Positions 11,394 through 58,006 of a stretch of 64,000 nt of DNA are shown here, piece after piece. A program made the translations under genes and the position numbers. This stretch comes from Desulfosediminicola ganghwensis. Lineage in GTDB: Bacteria > Desulfobacterota > Desulfobulbia > Desulfobulbales > Desulfocapsaceae. Where the stretch lies: the NCBI RefSeq assembly GCF_005116675.2, contig NZ_CP050699.1:2255001-2319000 (forward strand), given 5' to 3'. Each line of letters opens with the position of its first letter. Position 1 is the first letter of the stretch. Below the pieces are notes generated by a model, which worked only from the letters and a program-made list of their open reading frames with translations, searched no databases and had not been told where the DNA came from.

Positions 11394-14300
11394 ATGAGAC
11401 CAGCTAACAGACAGAAATCACTGCCGGCAATGGCTGCTACGTATTGTCTGGGAGTTTTTAACGATAATTACTTCAAACAGGCTGCAATGCTCCTGGCCGT
11501 GGCGGCGGGTGCCAACCAGTTGCAGGGGTGGGCCGCCATTCTCTTTGCTTTGCCCTTCATCCTCTTTTCAGCACACGGGGGCTGGTGCGCTGACAGATTT
11601 GCGAAAAAGCGTGTGGTCGTCATGGCCAAGGGGCTTGAAGTGTTGGCGATGATGGTCGGTGCTGTAGGACTGATTACCGGCAGTTGGGCCTGCATTCTTA
11701 TGATGGTTTTTGTGATGGGGCTTCAATCCACCTTTTTCAGCCCATCTCTGAACGGCTCTATCCCGGAGTTGTATCCTGCGGAGTCGGTTCCGCGCATCAA
11801 CGCAATTATTAAGTTGGCAACCACCGTGGCCATTCTGGCGGGCATCGCTATCGCCGGCATCTCCCTTGATCAGAACTGGATGGATACCGATGCAGCCCCC
11901 TTCGGTGTACTCCTGGTGGCGGTGACGTCGGTTCTGGTGGCAGTGACGGGTCTTGTGGCCAGCTTCGGAATTCACAAGTATAAAGGGGCGACAGAGAATT
12001 CAGAGGTGCCGTTTCCCTGGTTCGGGCCATACCGCTCGGTCAAAGATCTCATCGATATTTGTCGTGATCGACAGCTGCTGGTGGCTGTAGCTGGTGATGC
12101 CTGGTTCTATTTCATCGCCTCCATCGCGGTCCTGGTTATTAATGCAGTTGGAATCCAGCAATTCGGTTTTTCCCAAACCATGACCAGTCTGCTTTCCGTA
12201 TCCCTGATGCTCGGTGTCTGTGCAGGTTCCTTTCTGGCAGCCCGTCTGACCCGTGTTGATAATTGGTCAGCCTATCTGGTTCCGGCAGTTTTGGGCATTG
12301 CAATCGGTTTGATTATGGCCGGCATGACTACCAGTGTGCCGGAGAGTGCCCGTTTCTGGTGGCTGATGTTTGCACTCGGATTCGCAGGTATTGCCGGTGG
12401 ATTGTTCCTTATCCCGATTACCAGTTTCCTGCAAATTCGACCGGCAGATTCAGACAAGGGCAGGGTACTCGCCGCTGCCGGTTTCACCGCTTTTGTGGCC
12501 ATTCTGCTCTCTGGCATGCTCTATAATATTTTTGAGTCACTTCTTGCTCCCACCGCTTTCATGCTGGCACTTGGTGTGCTGAGTGTGCTGATGGTTTTTG
12601 TCTTCCAGCGGCTGGTGGCAAGCACCGGCAGCACTCCTCGCAGCTTTGTCGGAACCGTACTTCGCACTATGCTGTGTCTGCGCTACAAGATCACTGTGCA
12701 GGGACGTGAGGAACTTGTAAAAGCTGCAGAGCATGGTGGAGACCGCCCTCAACCTGGTACGATATTTTTGCCGAATCATCCGGCACTGATCGATCCGGTA
12801 ATTGTGATGTCCATCCTGCATGACAGGTTTGCACCGCGACCTCTGTCCGATGAAGCGCAGCTTAGAAAACCACTGACAAAACATGCCATGCGTTTTATCG
12901 ACCCGATCGCTCTTCCCGATATAAAAACCAATGGGCGAGGCAGCAGGGAAGCAGTTCACCAGGCAATAAATGAGGTGGTCGCCTCCCTTAAACGTGGCGA
13001 GAATGTACTTTTTTATCCGGCAGGTCGTTTAAACCGAGGACCGCTGGAAGATCTGGGCGCAAATTCGGGTCTTGAGTTTATCCTGCGTAATGTGCCGGGT
13101 GTACAAGTGGTTCTGGTACGAACAACAGGTCTCTGGGGGAGCAGTTTCAGCCGGGCTTCAGGCAAATCACCAGCACTTGTTAAGCATTTGAAGCGTTATC
13201 TGACAGCGCTCCTGGCCAATGGACTCTTTTTCGGGCCGAAACGAGAGGTTCGTGTCGAGTTCAGACGGGATGACCTGGTGCAGGAGCTCGGTGAGAGAAA
13301 CAGCATCAACAGGTATCTGGAGGAATTCTACAACGAAACTCCCCAGGCTAATATCAGTGTACCCTATTTCTGGTGGCAGGGAACAAAGCAGGTAGAGCTG
13401 CCCGAAGAAATAAAAAATACTGCTGAACAGGATCTTGCCGCAGTGCCAGTCTCACTGCAGCAACAGGTCAAGGCAAAAGTTGCCGAGCTTGCCGGTGTCG
13501 AAATAGACGCGCTCGGCCCCAATCTGCGGCTGGCCAACGACCTGGGCCTTGACAGCCTCACCATTATGGAGATCGCCACCTGGCTGGAGAGCGAGTTTGG
13601 TACCAGGATTGATGATCTGGCAGTGTTGGACAGTGTTGAAGACTGTATTATGGCTGCGGCCGGTCAGCTATATCACTCTGAAGCGGTACAGCATGAACCG
13701 CCGCCGAAGAAGTGGTTTAAAGAGGATGCAGAGATTCTCAAGGTGAGCGGTGCGCAGACTCTCACAGGGGCATTTCTGGATAAGGCGCTGGCAAATCCGG
13801 GAAAAGTAATTCTGGCTGATCGTATTGCCGGAGTAAAAACCTACCGGGATATCCTTACAGCTGTCTTTATCCTGCAGCCTGTTTTAAAAGAGCTCAAAGG
13901 GCAACGGGTCGGCGTAATGTTGCCCGCCTCGGTCTCAAGCTCAATCGTTTACCTGGCCTTGCTATTTGCCGGTAAGACGCCGGTTATGTTCAACTGGACC
14001 TCTGGCCGGGTAAATATGCAACATGGGATAGAGGAGACTGGTGTCAACTATATCCTGTCAGCCACTCCGCTCTGTTCCCGCCTGGAAGAGCAGGGGCTTG
14101 ATCTCGCCACGTTACCGGTAAAGTGGTTGCAGCTTGATCAGGTGCTGCCAAATCTTGGTAAAAAGGCAAAACTGCTTGGGGTTGCCAAATCGTACCTGTT
14201 GCCGCTATTTGCCGGAAAATTGCGAAGAGCAGAGGTGGGAGAGAACGCCGCCATCCTTTTCACAAGTGGTTCAGAGTCGAGGCCCAAATCCGTACCTTTG

Positions 14301-15308
14301 AGCCACGAGAATATTCTCACCAACCTGCGAGACCTGTCCGGTGTGCTTGAGCTTACCGGCGAACACAAATTACTGGGCATGCTGCCTCCATTTCACTCGC
14401 TCGGCCTGGTGGGTAATATTGTGCTGCCGCTGACCATGGGAATCCGCACAGTCTATCATGCCAACCCGACTGAACCGGTGATTATGGCGGATATCATCGA
14501 CCAGTATAAAGTTTCCCTGGCCCTTTCAACTCCGACCTTCTTAAACGGAATTCTCCAGGCGGGTGAACCAGCCCAGCTGGAAAGTCTGCGACTGGCGTTT
14601 ACCGGTGCGGAGAAATGCCCTGAACATGTGCGACGGAATTTATATGAAATGGTGCCTGAGGCGGAACTCTGCGAGGGGTATGGTATTACCGAATGCTCTC
14701 CTCTGGTGAGTTTGAACCTGCCGGGAGAGTCGCAGGCAGGGACTATAGGCCGGGTGCTACCTTCGGTGGAATTTGCCGTTGTCGACGAGGCTCAGACCAG
14801 AGAAGTGGAACCTGGAGAACGTGGGCAGTTATTGGTCAAAGGGCCATCCATCTTCAATGGCTATTTGAATAATGATAACCTGAAGGGGTTTTGTGAGTTT
14901 GATAATTCAATCTGGTATCAGACCGGTGATTTTGTGTCGGTGAATGAAGATGGTCACCTGGTCTTCAAGGGGCGCAAAAAACGCTTTGTGAAGCTGGCCG
15001 GTGAGATGATATCCCTGCCTGCAATTGAAACGACACTCTTTGAGATGATTACGGCAATAGATGAGCTTGATGGTCTACTTGAGAATTCAGGCCCGAGACT
15101 TGCTGTAGAAGCAACTACAGGTGATGGCCATCCTGAGATAGTACTGTTTACCACGGTTGGTTTAAAACGCCAGAAGGTGAATGCGTATCTCAAGCAGCAA
15201 GGGTTTTCTGCACTGCATAATATCCGGCGCCTGATTGAAATTGATGAAATCCCGGTACTGGGAACAGGAAAAACCGATTACACCAGATTACGTAGTTCAC
15301 TCGCTTGA
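11394..15308 (+). CDS. Fusion of LplT-like MFS, PlsC acyltransferase, ACP and acyl-ACP synthetase (Aas-like)
   Basis: A 1304-residue inner-membrane protein with four modules in order. Residues about 1-405 are an MFS transporter like LplT, the lysophospholipid flippase. Residues about 425-620 are a PlsC-type acyltransferase with NHPALID near 459. Residues about 685-755 are a carrier protein with the phosphopantetheine site LGLDSL (serine near 720). Residues about 770-1304 are an AMP-forming ligase with FTSGSESRPKSVPLS near 954, GYGITECSP near 1096 and YQTGDF near 1178. In E. coli LplT and Aas are separate and Aas borrows soluble ACP. Here flipping, acyl activation, carrier loading and reacylation of lysophospholipid seem joined in one chain. 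The start has GGAGAAC before the ATG. A perfect inverted repeat follows the stop. Confidence 0.88.
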   Translation: MRPANRQKSLPAMAATYCLGVFNDNYFKQAAMLLAVAAGANQLQGWAAILFALPFILFSAHGGWCADRFAKKRVVVMAKGLEVLAMMVGAVGLITGSWACILMMVFVMGLQSTFFSPSLNGSIPELYPAESVPRINAIIKLATTVAILAGIAIAGISLDQNWMDTDAAPFGVLLVAVTSVLVAVTGLVASFGIHKYKGATENSEVPFPWFGPYRSVKDLIDICRDRQLLVAVAGDAWFYFIASIAVLVINAVGIQQFGFSQTMTSLLSVSLMLGVCAGSFLAARLTRVDNWSAYLVPAVLGIAIGLIMAGMTTSVPESARFWWLMFALGFAGIAGGLFLIPITSFLQIRPADSDKGRVLAAAGFTAFVAILLSGMLYNIFESLLAPTAFMLALGVLSVLMVFVFQRLVASTGSTPRSFVGTVLRTMLCLRYKITVQGREELVKAAEHGGDRPQPGTIFLPNHPALIDPVIVMSILHDRFAPRPLSDEAQLRKPLTKHAMRFIDPIALPDIKTNGRGSREAVHQAINEVVASLKRGENVLFYPAGRLNRGPLEDLGANSGLEFILRNVPGVQVVLVRTTGLWGSSFSRASGKSPALVKHLKRYLTALLANGLFFGPKREVRVEFRRDDLVQELGERNSINRYLEEFYNETPQANISVPYFWWQGTKQVELPEEIKNTAEQDLAAVPVSLQQQVKAKVAELAGVEIDALGPNLRLANDLGLDSLTIMEIATWLESEFGTRIDDLAVLDSVEDCIMAAAGQLYHSEAVQHEPPPKKWFKEDAEILKVSGAQTLTGAFLDKALANPGKVILADRIAGVKTYRDILTAVFILQPVLKELKGQRVGVMLPASVSSSIVYLALLFAGKTPVMFNWTSGRVNMQHGIEETGVNYILSATPLCSRLEEQGLDLATLPVKWLQLDQVLPNLGKKAKLLGVAKSYLLPLFAGKLRRAEVGENAAILFTSGSESRPKSVPLSHENILTNLRDLSGVLELTGEHKLLGMLPPFHSLGLVGNIVLPLTMGIRTVYHANPTEPVIMADIIDQYKVSLALSTPTFLNGILQAGEPAQLESLRLAFTGAEKCPEHVRRNLYEMVPEAELCEGYGITECSPLVSLNLPGESQAGTIGRVLPSVEFAVVDEAQTREVEPGERGQLLVKGPSIFNGYLNNDNLKGFCEFDNSIWYQTGDFVSVNEDGHLVFKGRKKRFVKLAGEMISLPAIETTLFEMITAIDELDGLLENSGPRLAVEATTGDGHPEIVLFTTVGLKRQKVNAYLKQQGFSALHNIRRLIEIDEIPVLGTGKTDYTRLRSSLA

Positions 15309-15904: not shown

Positions 15905-18900
15905 ATGGTATTTGAGACGCGCGAGAAGAGTGGATCGGTTATGGTTGTAGGAGCAGGAATTTCAGGGATGCAGGCATCGCTCGATTTGGCTGAGTCCGGC
16001 TATTACGTTTACCTTGTAGAAAAATCTGCCGCCATCGGCGGAGTAATGTCACAGCTCGACAAAACCTTTCCGACCAACGATTGTGCAATGTGAGTAATTT
16101 CACCAAAACTGGTCGAGGTCGGCCGGCATCTGAATATTGAACTGTTGACGAATACAGAGATTCTGGAGCTTGAAGGCGAGCCCGGAAACTTCACCGCGAA
16201 AATTCACCAATCACCAAGATTTGTAGACCTGACAAAATGCACCAGCTGCGGCGAATGCGCCAAAGTCTGTCCGGTCTCCCGCCCCAACGAGTACAACGAG
16301 AAGCTCGACTTTCGTAAAGCAATTTATAAGCAATATCCCCAAGCCATTCCAGGCGGTTACGGCATCAATAAGGAAGGAACAGCCCCCTGTAAGGCTACCT
16401 GCCCTGCCCATGTCTCCATTCAGGGGTTCGTAGCACTCATCAACGAAGGAAAGTACGACGAAGCGCTCAAACTTTTCAAGCAGGATCATCCTTTCCCCGG
16501 CATCTGTGGCCGTGTATGTCACCACCCTTGTGAGAGTGAGTGTACCCGCACCCAGGTGGACCAGGCGCTGAACGTTCGGGAATTACACCGGTTCCTGGGC
16601 GATTATGAAAGAGAGAAGGGCGAGTTTTATATGCCTGAGATCGAGGCGGAGAAACGCGATGAGAAGATCGCGGTCATTGGTTCCGGCCCAGCCGGCGTGA
16701 CCGCGGCGTATGAGTTATTGCAGCAGGGGTATCAGGTAACCATCTTTGAAAAGCAGGAGGAACCTGGCGGCATGATGCGTTACGGCATCCCGGAATACCG
16801 GTTGCCGCGCGATATCCTGGCTGGCGAAATCGAGGTCGTTCAGAATATGGGCGCCGAGATCAGGTGCGGGGTCAATTTCGGCACCCATGTGACCTTGGAG
16901 AGCCTCAAAATGGATGGCTACTCTGCCGTGTTTCTGGCAATTGGTCTGCATGCCGGGCGAAATCTGGGCATCGAAAACGAAGAAATGACAGGCGTTTTGC
17001 AAGGTGTCGATTTCTTGCGCGATGCGGCCAGCGGCAAAAAAGTCGAGGTCGGCAAAGAGGTCGTTGTGGTGGGCGGCGGTAACGTGGCCGTGGATGTGGC
17101 CCAGACCGCCAAGCGTCTTGGCGCCGAGAACGTGACCCTTATCTGCCTTGAGCGCAGGGAAGAGATGCCTGCCTGGGAGTATGAGATAATCGAGGCGCTG
17201 GAAGATGACATCAAGATCGTCAACAGCTTCGGTCCCCGCAATTTCCATATAGATAAAACCACTCAAAAGGTCTCCGGCATCGAGTTCAAGAGCTGTAAAT
17301 CTGTCTTTGATGAGAGCGGCCGTTTCAACCCGGAATATGACGAGAGTGTCTGTGAGATATTCAACTGTGATACGGTAATCGTGGCCATCGGCCAGGCCAC
17401 CGACCTGAACGGCATCAAGGAGCAGGGGATCGCAATTTCGCGACCAGGCGGCCTGGAAGCCGACCCGGTCACCCTGCAGACCCCGATCGACTGGGTCTTT
17501 GCCGGTGGCGATGCTTTCTACGGCCCGAAATCGGTGGTGGACGCGGTGGCATGCGGTAAGGAAGCGGCCATCTCCATCCATCGCTATATCAACGATATGG
17601 ACCTGCGCGAAGACCGCGACAAGGTGTGGGAATATGTACGACCCGCTATCGAAGGGGAAGGAATCATCGAGCGGATCAAGGCCAGGCATCTCGACCCGGA
17701 AGTCAGGGCTGGGAATTTTCTGGAAGTTGCCAGCGGCTACAACGAAGAGCAGGCACGTCTGGAATCAGCCAGGTGCATGAGTTGCGGTATCTGTTCTGAG
17801 TGTTACCAGTGTCTCGATGCGTGTCTGGCCGGGGCCATCGACCATGAGATGCTGCCGGTTGACAAGGATCTTACCGTCGGTTCAGTAGTGCTTGCTACCG
17901 GTGCCAAACCCTACGATCCAAGCCCCCTCTCTGAGCTGTACCTGTATAAACAGAATCCCAACGTACTTACCAGTCTGGAATTTGAACGGCTGCTCTCTTC
18001 AGGTGGACCGACCATGGGACATCTGGTACGGCCATCTGATCATAAGGAACCGAAGAAAGTCGCCTGGCTGCAGTGTATCGGCTCGCGGGATAATAACAAG
18101 TGCGGCAACAGCTACTGCTCTTCCGTCTGCTGCATGTATGCCATGAAAGATGCGATGATCGCCAAGGAGCACGCCAGCGAAGACCTTGACGCTGCCATCT
18201 TCTATATGGATATTCGCTCGTACGGCAAAGATTACGAGATGTACTACGACCGGGCCCGTGACCGGGAGGGTATCCGTTTCGTCAAGGCCAGGGTTCATTC
18301 GGTGGTCGAGAACAAGGAGAACAAAAACCTTATCCTCCGTTTTGCCGACGAGAATGGCCTGATTCTGGAAGAAGAGTTCGATATGCTGGTACTCTCGGTG
18401 GGGCTTGAGGTCTCTAAGGAAACACTGGAACTGGCGGATAAGCTCGGTATTGAGGTCAATAAAAATAATTTCCTCAAGAGCGATCCATTTAATCCGCTGG
18501 AAGCTACCAGAAAAGGTATCTTTGCCTGCGGCACCTTCCAGGGACCAAAGGATATTCCGTCTTCGGTTACCGAAGCAAGTGCGGCCGCTGGTCTTGCCGG
18601 TTGTCTGATCGCCGAGGCCCGCGGAACTGATACCAAGGTGCTGGAGGTCCCGGAAGAGATCGATATCAGTGGCCAGGAACCACGGGTCGGCGTATTTGTC
18701 TGCAACTGCGGCTCGAATATTGCGGGCGTAGTCGATGTGCCGGCAGTTCAGGATTATTCAGCGACACTGCCCGGCGTGGTCTTCACAGACAACAACCTCT
18801 TCACCTGCAGTCAGGATACCCAGGCCAAGATCAAGGATAAGATCCTGGAAGAAGGGTTGAACCGGGTGGTTGTGGCCTCATGTAGCCCCAAGACCCATGC

Positions 18901-20365
18901 ACCGATGTTCATGGAGACCCTGGAGGCCTGCGGTTTGAATCGCTATCTATTTGAGATGGCCAATATCCGCAACCAGGATTCCTGGGTCCATACCAATAAT
19001 CCGGAACTTGCCACCGAAAAGGCAAAAGACCTGGTGCGCATGGCTGTGGCCCGCGCTGTTACGTTGCAACCGCTGCACGGTAAAGTTATCCCCGTGAACA
19101 AGCATGCTCTGGTGGTCGGTGGCGGTATCGCCGGCATGAACGCGGCGCTGGATCTGTCACGGCAGGGGTTTGAATCCACCCTGATCGAAAAGCAGTGCGA
19201 GCTGGGCGGCATGGGCAAGAAGCTGCACCACACCATCGAAGGTGCAGATATTAGAAACTATGTGGATAAGCTATCCAGCCAGGTTGTGGCGGATGAAAAG
19301 ATCACCGTGCTCACCGAGTCGGAGATTGTTGCATTTGAGGGCTTTCAGGGCAACTTCAAGACCGCTGTCAGTGCCGGCGGCCGGGAGGCGCAGCAGATTG
19401 AACATGGTGTGATCATCGTTGCCACAGGTGCGGGCGAGAACACGCCAACAGAGCACCTCTACGGTGAAGACGACCGAGTGCTCACTCAGAGCCAGCTGAG
19501 CGACAGGCTGGCGGATAAAGGGGCTGCAGATCTTGACACCGTGGTAATGATCCAGTGTGTCGGTTCACGTAACGAAGAGCGGCCCAATTGTTCGCGGATC
19601 TGTTGTCAGGCCGCGATCAAAAATGCCCTGGATATCAAAAAGAAGAGCCCGGATACCCAGGTCTATATCCTCTATCGCGACATGCGTATGTACGGTCAGA
19701 TGGAAGACTATTACACCGAGGCCAGGCAGCAGGGTGTGCTTTTCGTACGCTACACCAAGGACAAGCTTCCGGTTACCGTTTCTTCAGATGAAGGCGTGCT
19801 GATAACGGTGAAAGATCATGTGCTGCAAAGGGATATCGAGATCTGTGCCGACGTGCTGGCCCTGTCGGCAGGGGTGCTGCCCAATATCTCGGATGAGCTG
19901 GTGAACAGGATGAAGCTCAACACCAACCCTGAAGGCTATTTCCTTGAAGCGCATGTCAAACTGCGCCCGGTGGATATGGGTAGTGACGCAGTCTTCTTAT
20001 GTGGCACGGCCCATAGCCCGCAGCTGATTTCGGAGGCAATCGTCCAGGCGAATGCTGCGGCATCGAGGGCGGTCACCTTCCTTTCCAAGGATGAGATCAA
20101 ACTTTCGGCAATCAAGGCCGAGGTCTTCCCTGAAAATTGCGTCAAGTGTCTCACCTGTGTTCGGTCCTGTCCGTTTGAGGTACCAACGTTCAATTCTATA
20201 AAGGGCGAGATTGAGATCGATCCGGCACTCTGCCAGGGATGCGGTGTATGTGCCTGCGTCTGCCCGAGACAGACCATCAACCTCAATAACTACAAAGACG
20301 ACCAGATAACCTGTGAGGTCGAAACTCTGCTGGCTGAGGAGCTGAAATGGACGATATCAAATTAA
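15905..20365 (+). CDS. hdrA: HdrA-like electron-bifurcating flavoprotein with selenocysteine and NADPH-GltS-type insert
   Basis: A 1486-residue protein read through an in-frame UGA at 16091-16093 (Sec63). Around it the product reads [29 protein letters not shown], collinear with HdrA proteins that have Cys at that place in the iron-sulfur site. The N-terminal FAD motif [13 protein letters not shown] is followed by [12 protein letters not shown] (about 112). Next comes an inserted GltD-like dinucleotide module ([14 protein letters not shown] near 257), [13 protein letters not shown] (about 622), a second HdrA copy with [13 protein letters not shown] (about 1070), and a C-terminal two-cluster ferredoxin ([24 protein letters not shown], about 1412-1460). 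It should be the FAD bifurcation or confurcation hub for MvhD, HdrBC and MetVF encoded next to it. Start: AAGGAG 8 nt before the ATG. The end overlaps mvhD by 19 bp. Confidence 0.93.
16091..16126 (+). promoter_or_regulatory. Sec UGA and SECIS-like hairpin in hdrA
   Basis: UGA at 16091-16093, then 15 nt, then stem CTGGTC (16109-16114) pairing with GGCCGG (16121-16126) around the loop GAGGTC. All six pairs form, two of them G-U. The UGA-to-loop distance of about 21 nt fits the known range for bacterial SECIS elements, and the loop contains GGU. Confidence 0.7.
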
Positions 20366-20814
20366 ACATTGTAGCGTTTTGTTGCGATTATTGAGGGTAC
20401 TCTGCAGCGGACCTGGCAGGTTCGATGAGGCTGACATACCCAACCAATATCAAGATCATCCGTGTTCCCTGCACCGGCAAGGTGGATGTGACCTATCTGC
20501 TCAAGTGCTTCCAGCAAGGTGCCGACGGCGTTTTTTGCGTTGGCTGCCTTGAAGGCAACTGTCACTACAACGAGGGCAATCTCAGATGCCGGGAGCGGGT
20601 CGAGTATATCCATGAGCTGCTGGAAGAAATCGGAATCGAGGGCGAACGGGTCAGGATGTATAATCTCTCTTCCGGTGAAGGACCGACCTTTGCCAGGTAT
20701 GCCGAGGAGATGACCGAACACATCCGCGCTCTCGGGCCCAATCCATTGCGGGACAAACCCAGAAAAGCGGCTGAACCCGTGTTGGACGGGGAAAGTGCCG
20801 GGACTCTGAATTAG
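20347..20814 (+). CDS. mvhD: MvhD-like electron-transfer subunit with selenocysteine
   Basis: A 155-residue [2Fe-2S]-type subunit that passes electrons between HdrA and its partner oxidoreductase. The true start is the ATG at 20347, inside the hdrA 3' end, preceded by GAGGAG. Translation gives [27 protein letters not shown], with an in-frame UGA at 20392-20394 (Sec16) where the family has the second Cys of a CxxC. Without recoding only an internal start at 20425 would be seen and the cluster site would be lost. Later motifs VPCTGKVD, GCLEGNCHY and GPTFARYAEEMTEHI are typical of MvhD. The gene lies between hdrA and hdrBC. Confidence 0.93.
20392..20423 (+). promoter_or_regulatory. Sec UGA and SECIS-like hairpin in mvhD
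   Basis: UGA at 20392-20394, a 14-nt spacer, stem GGACCT (20409-20414), loop GGC, stem AGGTTC (20418-20423). The geometry matches the hairpins in hdrA and hdrBC. Confidence 0.72.
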
Positions 20815-20868
20815 CAGATTTGGAAAGGATACGTCGAAAATAGCGGCACCTCATAAAAGGAGTCAATC

Positions 20869-22167
20869 ATGTATGAAGGAGCTATTCGAATAGGCGGTAA
20901 AAAGAAAAGCAGGTTGATGGACCAGGTCAAGCAACTGCTGCCCGAGGGCGGCAATCTTGATATGTGCCTCACCTGCGGAGCCTGTACTTCAGGCTGCCCT
21001 GCAACGGGGCTGGAAGATATGGACCCGCGCAAACTGCTGCGCATGGCCGCCATGGGCATGGACGATGAGCTATTGGCCTCTGACTGGCCCTGGATGTGCA
21101 CCATGTGCCAGCGTTGTATTTACGTCTGCCCTATGAAGATTGATATTCCCCAGCTGGTATTCAACCTTCGGGCTCTACGACCACGCGAGGAGCGCCCCAA
21201 AGGCATCCTCGGTTCATGTGATATGGCGCTCAGAAGTGACACCTGCAGTGCCATGGGGGCAAGCGAGGAAGACTGGAAGTTCGTGGTGGAGGACGTAGCC
21301 GAAGAAGTACGGCGGGATCAGCCGGGAATGGAGAACCTGCAGGCGCCCATGAATAAGGAGGGCTCCTACTTCTACCTTAACCAGAATTCCCGCGAACCGA
21401 TGACCGAGCCGGATGAGATGGTTCCGCTCTGGAAGATATTAGATAAGGTCGGAGCCGACTGGACCTACGGATCCAAAGGCTGGGCAGCAGAAAATTACTG
21501 TCTGTTCCTTGCCGACAACAAGAGCTGGGAGCATATCATCAGGGTGAAAGCCAAGGCGGTGGATGATCTTGGCTGCAAGGTGTGGCTCAACACCGAATGA
21601 GGTCACGAACTTTTCGCAGTCCGGGCCGGACTGAAAAAATTCAACATCGAGCATAACTTCGAGATTGCCAGCATTATTACATATTACGCCAAGTGGATAC
21701 GGGAAGGCAAGCTACCGGTAAACTCCGACTGGAACAAGGAGAGAAAGATCACCTTCACAGTGCAGGACCCCTGCCAGCTGGTACGAAAATCTTTTGGCGA
21801 CCCGGTAGCCGACGATCTGCGTTTTGTGGTGAAGCAGGTTGTGGGTGAAGAGAATTTCATCGATATGGCGCCGAATAAATCCAACAACTATTGCTGCGGC
21901 GGCGGTGGTGGTTTTCTGCAGTCAGGCTTCCCAGAAGCCCGGCGGGAATATGGACGTCTGAAGTTTGACCAGATCAAGGATACCGGAGCGCAATACGCCA
22001 TCACCCCCTGCCATAACTGCCACGCCCAGGTGCATGATCTGGCAGAGCATTTCGGCGGCGAGTGGCACACCCTGCATCTCTGGACGTTAATATGCCTCTC
22101 CATGGGGATGCTGGGTGAGAATGAACGTGTATATCTTGGGCCGGATCTGGCTGAGGTCGGCCTGTAG
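20869..22167 (+). CDS. HdrC-HdrB fused subunit (HdrD-like) with selenocysteine
   Basis: A 432-residue fused iron-sulfur protein. The N-terminal HdrC-like part has CLTCGACTSGCP (about 33-44) and CTMCQRCIYVCP (about 77-88). The C-terminal HdrB-like part has a CCG-type domain with CCGGGGGF and CHNCHAQ. The frame runs through a UGA at 21598-21600 (Sec244): VWLNTE-U-GHELFAVRAGLKKFN, where relatives have Cys as first ligand of the CCG site. After the UGA the same frame stays open to 22167 with clear family sequence (DPCQLVRKSFGDP). It should carry the electron exit or entry site of the HdrA complex. Here the partner is MetV/MetF rather than a heterodisulfide. The ribosome site is AAAAGGAG. Confidence 0.92.
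21598..21633 (+). promoter_or_regulatory. Sec UGA and SECIS-like hairpin in hdrBC
   Basis: UGA at 21598-21600, a 16-nt spacer, then a perfect 7-bp stem CAGTCCG (21617-21623), loop GGC, CGGACTG (21627-21633). This is the strongest of the three hairpins and has the same loop as in mvhD. Confidence 0.78.
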
Positions 22168-22181
22168 CGCGAATATCTCAG

Positions 22182-22265
22182 GAGCATTTTGTCGAAACTC
22201 AAGAGGGGGATCCATTATCAATGCTTGAAAGTACCTACAAGAATAAGGGTTTCGACAAAATGCTC
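22182..22265. repeat. 17-bp perfect inverted repeat in the hdrBC-metV gap
   Basis: GAGCATTTTGTCGAAAC at 22182-22198 and its exact complement at 22249-22265, 50 nt apart, just after the hdrBC stop. The whole gap 22168-22485 holds no convincing gene. The pair could form an mRNA processing or stabilising structure between the bifurcating subunits and metVF. Confidence 0.7.
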
Positions 22266-22485
22266 ACCAGAGCTGCCCTGAAACAAATGCTCTTGGAGTG
22301 CAGCCCATGCGGTGCCATCTTCTTCAGTATTTTGGCTGTCAAAGTAGTTCACTATGATTTACAGCCCAAAACTTCGAAGCTGACACCGTCTGAACTGACG
22401 AGAAATTCGAGCCAGCATACATTTTTTCAGAGGATCGGGGGGAAGGAATTGTTCAATTTCCCGGTCCATATTGGAGGACATTTTT

Positions 22486-23169
22486 ATGATAGTTGCCAAT
22501 AGAAAGCCTTTTGCCGAGATTAAGGAGATGCTTGAGGGGTATACCAAGGTCTTAAACGTCGGCTGCGGCACCTGTGTCTCTGTCTGTTTGACAGGTGGAG
22601 AGAAAGAGGTGGAGATCCTGAACACCGAGCTGGAGATGGCCAGGCGTCTCGATGACAACCCCATAGATATTCACGGTCATACCATCGAGCGTCAGTGTGA
22701 TCGCGAATATCTGGCCGAGCTTGACGAGAAGATAGCAGAAGGTGAATTTGACGCGCTGATGTCCATGGCCTGTGGTGTGGGAATCCAGTTCCTGGCGGAA
22801 CGATATCCCGATATCCCAACGTTTCCTGCAGTGGATACCAGTGGTCTTGCGGTTAATCAGGCGGTTGGCTGGTATGAAGAGCGTTGCAGATCCTGCAGTC
22901 AGTGTGTGCTCGGTTTTACCGGCGGTATCTGCCCAATCACCCTCTGTGCCAAAGGGCTGTTAAACGGCCCCTGCGGCGGGACGAATATGGGCAACTGTGA
23001 GATCTCAAACGATCAGCCGTGCGCATGGTTCAGGATTTATGAACGTCTCAAAGGTCAGGACAGGCTCGATGCGATAAAAAGCATTAACGTCAGCCGTGGC
23101 TGGAAAGATCAGTCTCCAAGAGATCTGCTGCAGCCGGGATATAAAAAACCGGAGAGCATGGCCAAATAG
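22486..23169 (+). CDS. metV: MetV-like zinc-finger subunit of methylene-THF reductase
   Basis: A 227-residue member of the MetV (methylenetetrahydrofolate reductase C-terminal) family. Cysteine-rich motifs are visible: NVGCGTCVSVC near 28, CRSCSQCVLGFTGGICPI near 138-155, and LNGPCGGTNMGNCE near 166. In acetogens MetV binds MetF and links it to the HdrABC-MvhD module. The start is the ATG at 22486, with GGAGGA seven bases upstream; a TTG farther upstream is not needed. metF follows after 200 bp on the same strand. Confidence 0.9.
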   Translation: MIVANRKPFAEIKEMLEGYTKVLNVGCGTCVSVCLTGGEKEVEILNTELEMARRLDDNPIDIHGHTIERQCDREYLAELDEKIAEGEFDALMSMACGVGIQFLAERYPDIPTFPAVDTSGLAVNQAVGWYEERCRSCSQCVLGFTGGICPITLCAKGLLNGPCGGTNMGNCEISNDQPCAWFRIYERLKGQDRLDAIKSINVSRGWKDQSPRDLLQPGYKKPESMAK

Positions 23170-23370
23170 TTGAAACCCGAAAGCGGTGCTTTTTCTCTAA
23201 CTGATCGTTGTTCAATGATTTTTACCCTTGGGGGATTTGCTATATGGTTCCGGTAAAATGAATCGAATCTCTCGATTTAGAAGAAAATCAATCGCTTCGG
23301 GATAGATGCTAATTGACTGAACGTAAATGGTATCATTTCCTCGCTACCATCAATAATCAGAGGATTACAT

Positions 23371-24312
23371 ATGAGCACAGAAACGAAAGTAAATCCCAAG
23401 AGCAACCTGGAAAAGGTGCTGACAGGTGGCCACTTTGCTTTTACCGGAGAACTCGGTCCCCCAAGGGGTACCGATGCCCAAGAGGTAAAAGAGAAAGCCC
23501 GCTTTCTAAAAGGCAATGTCGATTCCGTCAACATCACCGATAATCAGACTGCAGTGGTGCGAATGTCAAGTTGGGCGGCATCGCTTCTGATCCTCGAAGA
23601 AGGTCTTGAGCCCAATTACCAGATGGTCTGCAGGGACAGAAACCGCCTTGCCATGCAGGCGGATATTCTGGGTGGAGCTGCCCTGGGCATAAAAAACATG
23701 CTCTGCCTCTCCGGTGACCATCAGCAGTTCGGCGATCACCCGGATGCCAAAGGTGTTTTCGACATCGATTCGATCCAGCTGATAGCCATGGTTAAACAGA
23801 TGCGGGACGAAGGAAAGTTTTTAAGCGGTGGCGAAATTGAGCATCCGCCCGGGATGTTTATCGGCGCAGCTTCCAATCCTTTTGCTGAACCGTTTGAATG
23901 GCGTGTGGATCGTCTGGCCAAAAAGATTGAGGCGGGTGCAGACTTTATTCAGACCCAGTGCATCTATAACATGGATCGTTTCCGCGAATTCATCCATGTT
24001 GCCAATGAAGAGGGGCTGACGGATCAGGTCTATATTCTTGCCGGGGTAACTCCCATGAAGAGTATCGGTATGGCCAGGTATATGAAGAGCAAAGTTCCCG
24101 GTATGGATGTACCTGATGAGATCATCGATCGTTTAAAGGGGGTCGAGAAGAAGAAGGTCGCCGATGAAGGCATCAGGATAGCCTGCGAACAGATTGAAGA
24201 GTTCAAGGAAATGAAAGGGGTCCACGGCGTGCATATGATGGCGATCGAGTGGGAGCATAAAGTTCCTGAGATTGCCGAGAGGGCAGGGGTGTTACCTCGT
24301 CCGGGACTGTAA
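23371..24312 (+). CDS. metF: Methylenetetrahydrofolate reductase
   Basis: A 313-residue FAD-dependent TIM-barrel enzyme that interconverts methylene-THF and methyl-THF in the methyl branch of the Wood-Ljungdahl pathway and in methionine synthesis. Family segments: FTGELGPPRGTD (acid residue near 27 for catalysis), VDSVNITDNQ, LSGDHQQFGDH, GAADFIQTQCIYN-type strand and ILAGVTPMKS. The context with metV and hdrA-mvhD-hdrBC argues for the electron-bifurcating complex described in Moorella rather than a plain NADH-dependent MetF. A hairpin terminator follows. A decayed copy of its 3' end lies 4.3 kb downstream. Confidence 0.92.
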   Translation: MSTETKVNPKSNLEKVLTGGHFAFTGELGPPRGTDAQEVKEKARFLKGNVDSVNITDNQTAVVRMSSWAASLLILEEGLEPNYQMVCRDRNRLAMQADILGGAALGIKNMLCLSGDHQQFGDHPDAKGVFDIDSIQLIAMVKQMRDEGKFLSGGEIEHPPGMFIGAASNPFAEPFEWRVDRLAKKIEAGADFIQTQCIYNMDRFREFIHVANEEGLTDQVYILAGVTPMKSIGMARYMKSKVPGMDVPDEIIDRLKGVEKKKVADEGIRIACEQIEEFKEMKGVHGVHMMAIEWEHKVPEIAERAGVLPRPGL

Positions 24313-57726: not shown

Positions 57727-57744
57727 ACCATTGATCATGATGCA

Positions 57745-57930
57745 TGCGTGAATCTGACAGGCAGGCTTCCTGACTCGGTTTCATCGAACAATTGCGCCTT
57801 CCCGTAAAATACAGTGGCTTAATGCAGTGTTCTCAACCTTACAGTGGCGGGACCGTTCAGGTTTTTCACCTGATTTCCTTTTATCCGTCTTCGTTTGTCA
57901 TTGCAAAGACAGCACCTGTAGCATGTATAT
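57745..57930 (-). ncRNA. Cobalamin riboswitch aptamer
   Basis: Read on the minus strand the segment has AGGTGCTGTC, then AAAAGGAAATCAGGTGAAAAACCTGAACGG-type paired region, the B12-box-like CCCGCCACTGTAAG, then GCCACTGTA, GGGAAGGCG and GAGTCAGGAAGCCTGCC. These are the conserved blocks of the cobalamin (adenosylcobalamin) riboswitch in the correct order and spacing. With the terminator downstream, binding of B12 should stop transcription of the alpha-ribazole/ECF operon. Confidence 0.92.
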
Positions 57931-58006
57931 TAAAGAAATATCAAATATTTTTGTGATGAAAAGTCAACCGTTTTTCCGGTTTCCCTTGCCCACCAAGTCG
58001 ATTCTG

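Follow-up and report, generated by a model that had tools for sequence, protein, structure and literature searches.

A probable selenoprotein-rich Hdr-type methylene-tetrahydrofolate reductase module in the sulfate reducer Desulfosediminicola ganghwensis

We examined a 64,000-nucleotide (nt) stretch of the genome of Desulfosediminicola ganghwensis (contig NZ_CP050699.1, positions 2,255,001 to 2,319,000 of the forward strand; hereafter the window), in which five consecutive genes, hdrA, mvhD, an hdrD-like gene, metV and metF, probably encode a methylene-tetrahydrofolate (THF) reductase of the Hdr type that is rich in selenocysteine (Sec). The genome is a single contig of 5,653,142 bases. An earlier interpretation made from the letters alone (the sequence-only reading) had supposed a sulfate reducer-like host, as is the case: strain IMCC35004 is described as reducing sulfate and using acetate, betaine and glycine, and autotrophic growth with hydrogen was not observed (PMC8497536). 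When the open reading frames (ORFs) were reread, the coordinates and gene order given in that reading also proved right. The features, in window positions, are:

15905..20365, + strand: hdrA (HdrL/Moorella-type, 1486 amino acids (aa)), an ORF with one in-frame UGA, named from Pfam/NCBIfam and Protein Data Bank (PDB) matches
16091..16093, + strand: in-frame UGA of hdrA, Sec63, context TNDCAM-U-VISPKL
16109..16126, + strand: hairpin of hdrA resembling a selenocysteine insertion sequence (SECIS), with a 7-bp stem and loop AGGU, 22 nt 3' of the UGA
20347..20814, + strand: mvhD (FlpD/VhuD family, 155 aa), its start overlapping the end of hdrA by 19 nt
20392..20394, + strand: in-frame UGA of mvhD, Sec16, context CCDY-U-GYSAAD
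20409..20423, + strand: SECIS-like hairpin of mvhD, with a 6-bp stem and loop GGC, 20 nt 3' of the UGA
20869..22167, + strand: hdrD-like gene (fused HdrC and HdrB; GlpC/DsrK/TmcB-like Fe-S oxidoreductase, 432 aa)
21598..21600, + strand: in-frame UGA of the hdrD-like gene, Sec244, in an E-U-G-H motif, context LNTE-U-GHEL
21617..21633, + strand: SECIS-like hairpin of the hdrD-like gene, with a 7-bp stem and loop GGC, 23 nt 3' of the UGA
22486..23169, + strand: metV (DUF5981, MTHFR C-terminal family, 227 aa), no in-frame stop
23371..24312, + strand: metF (MTHFR family, 313 aa), no in-frame stop

Exactly one in-frame UGA is present in each of hdrA, mvhD and the hdrD-like gene, and plain gene calling with translation table 11 splits these three of the five genes: hdrA breaks into pieces of 62 and 1406 aa (the second from a TTG start), mvhD is left as 129 aa from an internal ATG, and the hdrD-like gene breaks into 243 and 135 aa. 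The sequence-only reading had placed all five genes in a single operon. Their synteny stands; a single transcript for all five is only inferred from it, because metV and metF are preceded by gaps of 318 and 201 nt, against 75 and 72 nt in D. flagellatus (L106). In the gap between the hdrD-like gene and metV lies a perfect 17-nt inverted repeat (22182-22198 and 22249-22265, with 50 nt between the arms), the 15-nt core of which has no second match in the window with fewer than three mismatches. An Rfam scan detected no RNA family at the operon, and promoter-like matches there were not in excess (8, against a mean of 8.2 in shuffles).

The three UGAs are very likely read as selenocysteine, judging from their conservation. 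A scan for MetV with one genome per species, which seeks exact MetV peptide stretches and so favours close relatives, yielded 41 named loci; matches to the three proteins were counted only if they spanned the UGA site and reached or exceeded chosen identity limits (56% for HdrA, 64% for MvhD and 60% for HdrD). The orthologous sites are UGA in 24/24 HdrA, 32/32 MvhD and 35/35 HdrD sequences, and all three sites are visible in 23 of the 41 loci, with UGA at all three in every one (23/23). Among the other 18, 13 run into a contig end, L115 is without hdrD, the genes of L142 are ordered differently, L145 and L146 are relatives with cysteine (Cys), and L144 shows no Hdr gene near MetV. Below the identity limits fell the L145 and L146 relatives with Cys, an MvhD-like match in L142 that has Ser, and four short out-of-register self-matches of HdrA (L113, L114, L127, L133). 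Nine relatives from an earlier MetV search are the same records as nine of the 41 loci and are not independent of them.

Alignment with Cys homologues, a check proposed in the sequence-only reading, found Cys at each of the three sites, which bears out its claim that each UGA occupies a Cys position of its family. The codon is TGC or TGT at the HdrA site in L088, L089, L091 and L146 and at the MvhD site in L088, L091 and L146, and TGC at the HdrD site in L162. At the scale of the phylum, HdrD-type matches with E <= 1e-120 occur in 50 of 395 genomes, and 53 of these 71 matches contain a TGA (18 contain none); in this sample at most four candidates were scored per genome, and the count takes no account of the position of the TGA or of the gene neighbourhood.

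A short stem-loop with GG in its loop follows each UGA at the distances listed above. Its codons are frozen in all three genes, whereas synonymous codons vary in the flanks: in mvhD the codons GCG GAC CTG GCA GGT are identical in 36/36 sequences, and each position of the hdrA stretch from AAA to GGC keeps a single codon in 32 or 33 of the 33 sequences (97-100%) that have the common residue. These sets take in tandem and paralogous copies. In the hdrD-like gene, where the amino acid changes along with the stem, 99.2% of 245 cells are paired and 6 cells carry changes on both sides; neither value is reached in any of 500 shuffles. Mean folding-energy z-scores against synonymous shuffles are -1.12, -1.78 and -1.25 for HdrA, MvhD and HdrD, compared with +0.83, 0.06 and 0.21 in control windows. 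Hairpin energy was dropped as sole proof of a SECIS element, since the z-scores are modest and depend on window length; the case therefore rests on the frozen synonymous codons and the covariation in HdrD. By eye, the Cys homologue of HdrD in the host (L162) has no such stem. Part of the SECIS-like stem is kept, again by eye, in the Cys mvhD genes beside metV in L145 and L146; such remnants may reflect a change from Sec to Cys or a constraint on the protein.

Selection also appears to have maintained the sequence around the UGAs. Ratios of nonsynonymous to synonymous divergence (dN/dS) against L106 and L107 are 0.02-0.09 for HdrA and HdrD on both sides of the UGA, for MvhD 3' of the UGA, and for MetV and MetF.

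The sequence-only reading had also pointed to the Sec machinery as a check, and this was found in part. A tRNA-Sec exceeds the Rfam cut-off in the host genome and is also called by ARAGORN, and SelB exceeds its profile cut-off. No selA match over the cut-off was obtained in the host, where the place expected from synteny lies in a masked stretch; the same holds for the congener G038, and the archaeal-type synthase SepSecS had no match over the cut-off either. Across the family, selA exceeds the cut-off in 45 of 60 genomes. True loss of selA was considered and abandoned because the gene order in G027 and G013 points to the masked stretch, which covers the expected selA place in both the host and G038. 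The gene adjoins an rRNA operon in G027 (L147) and lies near an rRNA gene at a contig end in G013 (L148); it begins 185-669 bases from a contig start in 16 of the 46 family genomes with a match.

Several of these results weigh to some degree against the reading of the UGAs as Sec. The missing selA match is one, tempered by the masking of its expected place. The dN/dS ratios are rough because dS is high or saturated in several comparisons, and that of mvhD covers the downstream part only, leaving out the 15 codons before the UGA. As to the hairpins, those of HdrA and MvhD are nearly invariant, so that the covariation comes from HdrD alone; the HdrD stem has changes on both sides in only two of seven pairs, which 14 of 500 shuffles reach, and five of its six compensated cells carry one common change, perhaps a single event. 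The window's own sequences give weak z-scores, -1.31 to +1.04 depending on gene and window length.

Pfam and NCBIfam back the gene names. The NCBIfam scores lie below the listed cut-offs, with a GltD-type subfamily in HdrA as the sole match over its cut-off among the operon proteins. For HdrA, the family assignment of the sequence-only reading holds; a plain hdrA it is not. From its alignments, the protein is a fusion of two complementary HdrA halves, one supplying the N-terminal domain and the other the equivalent of Cys197, with an NAD(P)-binding insert. The first half begins directly at the FAD fold, without the N-terminal domain, and is interrupted at about aa 156-640 by a GltD/NfnB-like insert, the best PDB matches of which are NfnA (9n5u), two large oxidoreductases (9bov and 8oh5) and NfnI (5jca); the insert also matches GltD chains. 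The second half (about aa 920-1480) carries the N-terminal domain and aligns to residues 7-243 of 8rvu_a (2-236 of 5odc_A); it lacks both a Cys at 197 and the inserted ferredoxin domain. Sec63 corresponds in a gapless alignment to residue 197 (Cys) of 5odc_A, and the HdrA chain 9sfi_A has a residue X there. Cys197 is described as a ligand from one HdrA to the N-terminal cluster of the other HdrA (PMC9012536). Because the two halves are complementary and Sec63 aligns with Cys197, Sec63 is probably a ligand of the [4Fe-4S] cluster that the second half holds.

Sec16 of MvhD lies inside a CxxC motif and coincides with a residue X of VhuD (9sfi_K). The third protein had been called an HdrBC fusion. 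Indeed HdrB and HdrC are joined in one chain, and no separate HdrB and HdrC subunits are encoded among the five genes; the chain is better named HdrD/GlpC/DsrK-like. TmcB, HmcF and DsrK give it its highest NCBIfam scores, each far short of the cut-off. Besides two motifs of the [4Fe-4S] type it contains a single complete CCG motif (C302, C342, C343, C381, C384), and a typical HdrB, which would have two such complete motifs, was rejected on this count. Residue 244 belongs to a separate E-C/U-G-H motif, invariant in 25 sequences, outside the complete CCG motif. The predicted structure (mean predicted local distance difference test score, pLDDT, 85.3) resembles mycobacterial EtfD (E 4e-10) and, with E-values of 6e-6 to 4e-5, HdrB chains; its resemblance to HdrC is weaker (E 2e-3). 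No hydrogenase subunit MvhA or MvhG is encoded among the five genes, unlike in the MvhADG-HdrABC complex.

The clustering of metV, metF, mvhD and hdrA recalls the MetFV-HdrABC-MvhD system of Moorella thermoacetica and the HdrCBA-MvhD-MetVF system of Sporomusa ovata. The link to the acetogen type drawn in the sequence-only reading is upheld by the domain plan of HdrA, as far as PMC9430772 sets it out: the Moorella protein, too, has an extra TrxR-like half split by a GltD domain, and its C-terminal half (922-1487), reaching at least residue 1487, is without the inserted ferredoxin domain. PMC9012536 likewise bears on this agreement between the second halves. The D. ganghwensis module differs from these two in having HdrB and HdrC as one HdrD-like chain and in its three Sec sites; for Moorella, PMC1794560 lists one Sec HdrA and one Sec FrhD, which may or may not belong to its metVF cluster.

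That all three redox partners use Sec and that HdrB and HdrC are fused is correct as fact, and none of these parts is new. Sec-containing HdrA, FrhD/MvhD and GlpC have been in the literature since 2006, as have operons that combine them with genes for hydrogenase (PMC1794560). In those operons the three Sec families are adjacent, as here, and an 'hdrA_N-unknown-hdrA_C' arrangement is also given; they contain the hydrogenase genes frhG and frhA, where the window operon has metV-metF. Desulfobacterium autotrophicum HRM2 was described in 2009 with Sec in all three types (HdrL1/HdrL3, MvhD, HdrD4), HdrL being a fusion of HdrA and glutamate synthase and HdrD one of HdrC and HdrB, as in the window; unlike here, the accessible part of that account describes no metV-metF beside the Sec Hdr genes (PMC2702500). 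The hdrABC-mvhD-metVF cluster of the Chloroflexi DscP3 genome (2017) likewise has HdrC fused to HdrB, and no Sec is described for its Hdr genes in the corresponding portion of PMC5736913. In Methanococcus HdrAU and VhuD (PDB 9sfi), a residue X, taken as Sec, occupies the positions of Sec63 and Sec16; these proteins are archaeal and tied to hydrogenase and heterodisulfide, and VhuD has a second residue X, unlike the proteins studied here. Methanococcus Cys isoforms are reported to go up under low selenium (PMC11097638). HdrA9-11 of ANME-1 also have an NfnB-like insert, there inside the inserted ferredoxin domain (PMC9012536), and in Seep-SRB1g metF adjoins HdrABC (2023; PMC10553843). The Sec richness of the host itself is already published, since 40 known selenoprotein genes have been counted in the D. 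ganghwensis genome (PMC12013277). Literature searches, covering mainly papers outside subscription, found no description of a metV-metF module in which HdrA, MvhD and HdrD all contain Sec; each Sec part is thus already known, and the combination appears undescribed.

Synteny was compared over 18 regions (seven printed) with open frames of at least 120 aa. The window, L106, L107 and L108 share a unit of five genes and not its flanks. Variants of the unit occur: several loci from Desulfobacterales have an extra hdrA with a UGA and a Cys mvhD upstream, and the modules of three relatives (L111, L112, L113) have two tandem mvhD genes, both with a UGA. In L106, a second metF, 84% identical to that of the window, lies a few kb downstream of the module (17340-18269), and in L116 a second Sec hdrD copy follows metF (from 10525).

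The host genome itself encodes four full-length MetV matches, corresponding to four MetVF-HdrA-MvhD modules with Sec counts of 3, 1, 1 and 0. In the window module HdrA, MvhD and HdrD all contain Sec. A second module (L088, at about 4.05 Mb) has Sec in HdrD and Cys in HdrA and MvhD, with genes for carbon monoxide dehydrogenase/acetyl-CoA synthase (CODH/ACS) within about 25 kb. The third (L089, about 3.10 Mb) has separate hdrC-like and hdrB genes, Cys in HdrA and Sec in MvhD, and the fourth (L091, about 3.15 Mb) has Cys in both HdrA and MvhD, is followed by FTHFS and FolD, and gave no HdrD match within the region examined. CODH/ACS, FTHFS and FolD are thus all encoded in the host genome; membership of the window module in the CODH/ACS locus was rejected, as it is not near it. 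The host also encodes an HdrD homologue that carries Cys in place of Sec (the gene of L162; L175, 7526-8809, - strand), close to an FAD oxidoreductase and a lactate permease.

Taken together, the five genes likely encode a selenoprotein-rich methylene-THF reductase of the Hdr type (Moorella-type). In such an enzyme, MetF would interconvert methylene-THF and methyl-THF, MetV and the HdrD chain would relay electrons between MetF and HdrA, and MvhD would dock on HdrA. The GltD insert of HdrA would exchange electrons with NAD(P)(H), and the HdrA flavins would couple this exchange, near equilibrium, to a low-potential carrier, probably ferredoxin; the architecture is compatible with flavin-based electron bifurcation. 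The complex probably runs oxidatively in this acetate- and betaine-using host without observed autotrophy on hydrogen, so that methyl-THF would be converted to methylene-THF and NAD(P)+ reduced with the help of a second low-potential donor. This direction is plausible in an acetate user because the Moorella reaction, as proposed, lies close to equilibrium, near -5 kJ/mol (PMC5861303). Formation of the complex and its direction are inferences, as are the bifurcation and any selenium tuning supposed in the sequence-only reading. For the Moorella enzyme the electron acceptor is marked '?' (PMC5861303), and according to the authors of the Sporomusa study the mechanism of the Hdr-type enzyme remained unclear (PMC9430772).

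Three observations speak against this assignment. Of the 24 orthologous HdrAs, 10 have the GltD insert and 14 lack it, as read from match segments, which means that NAD(P) coupling by way of this insert cannot be a general property of the module. One relative (L081, the same record as L115) has a module without hdrD; its order is hdrA-mvhD-metV-metF, with a UGA in hdrA and in mvhD. Finally, the window module is not beside CODH/ACS, and two of the paralogous modules are nearer to Wood-Ljungdahl genes.

The chief rival is a linear, non-bifurcating transfer, in which the HdrD chain links MetF to DsrC or to a membrane complex, HdrA is a mere relay, and the electrons of methyl-THF go straight to sulfite reduction. 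The absence of the GltD insert from most orthologues fits such a scheme, as do the best-scoring families of the HdrD-like chain, however far below their cut-offs. A CCG domain of HotSeep-1 resembling HdrB/TmcB is predicted to bind DsrC (PMC10553843), and the Sporomusa Hdr-type enzyme is described as partly membrane-associated, with NADH not oxidised, against its authors' hypothesis (PMC9430772). Yet a plain relay would have no need of the two FAD-type halves and the NAD(P)-binding insert that the D. ganghwensis HdrA retains, and we regard linear transfer as a serious but rather unlikely alternative to the NAD(P)-coupled enzyme. Much less probable is a biosynthetic methylene-THF reductase of the methionine cycle with unrelated Hdr genes as chance neighbours. 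It would suit the lack of any Wood-Ljungdahl gene among the five genes or the five annotated flanking genes of the window, but the five genes are kept together where other neighbours differ, Sporomusa MetV and MetF associate with Hdr subunits and MvhD in pull-downs (PMC9430772), and a separate homocysteine methyltransferase/MTHFR fusion is encoded elsewhere in the host (L088, 1002-2900). It is hardly credible that the UGAs are genuine termination codons, sequencing errors or lesions of pseudogenes: the missing selA match, its expected place masked, is set against UGA at every visible orthologous site of the named loci, the low dN/dS ratios near the UGAs, the conservation of the hairpins and the compensatory changes in that of HdrD, the presence of selB and tRNA-Sec in the genome, and selA in most genomes of the family.

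Elsewhere in the window, a 1304-aa protein with MFS transporter, acyl-carrier and AMP-binding domains is encoded upstream of the operon (11394-15308), and a cobalamin riboswitch was detected by Rfam at 57743-57934 on the - strand (106 bits).

Because the three further host modules carry fewer Sec residues or none, the hdrA-mvhD-hdrD-metV-metF module of the window may be the selenium-replete isoform of D. ganghwensis. More speculatively, the four modules could form a selenium-graded set of isoenzymes, in which the triple-Sec form would oxidise methyl-THF faster or at a lower potential than the Cys forms and selenium supply would switch between forms. The triple-Sec form would place selenium at three points of the path from MetF through HdrD and HdrA to MvhD, at least one of them being a known cluster-ligand position. 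In acetogens, it is still an open matter what the Hdr-type methylene-THF reductase exchanges electrons with. Sec and Cys within one electron path could be compared naturally in D. ganghwensis, a sulfate reducer in culture whose four paralogous modules vary in Sec content, together with the roughly two dozen sequenced relatives that share the three Sec sites.

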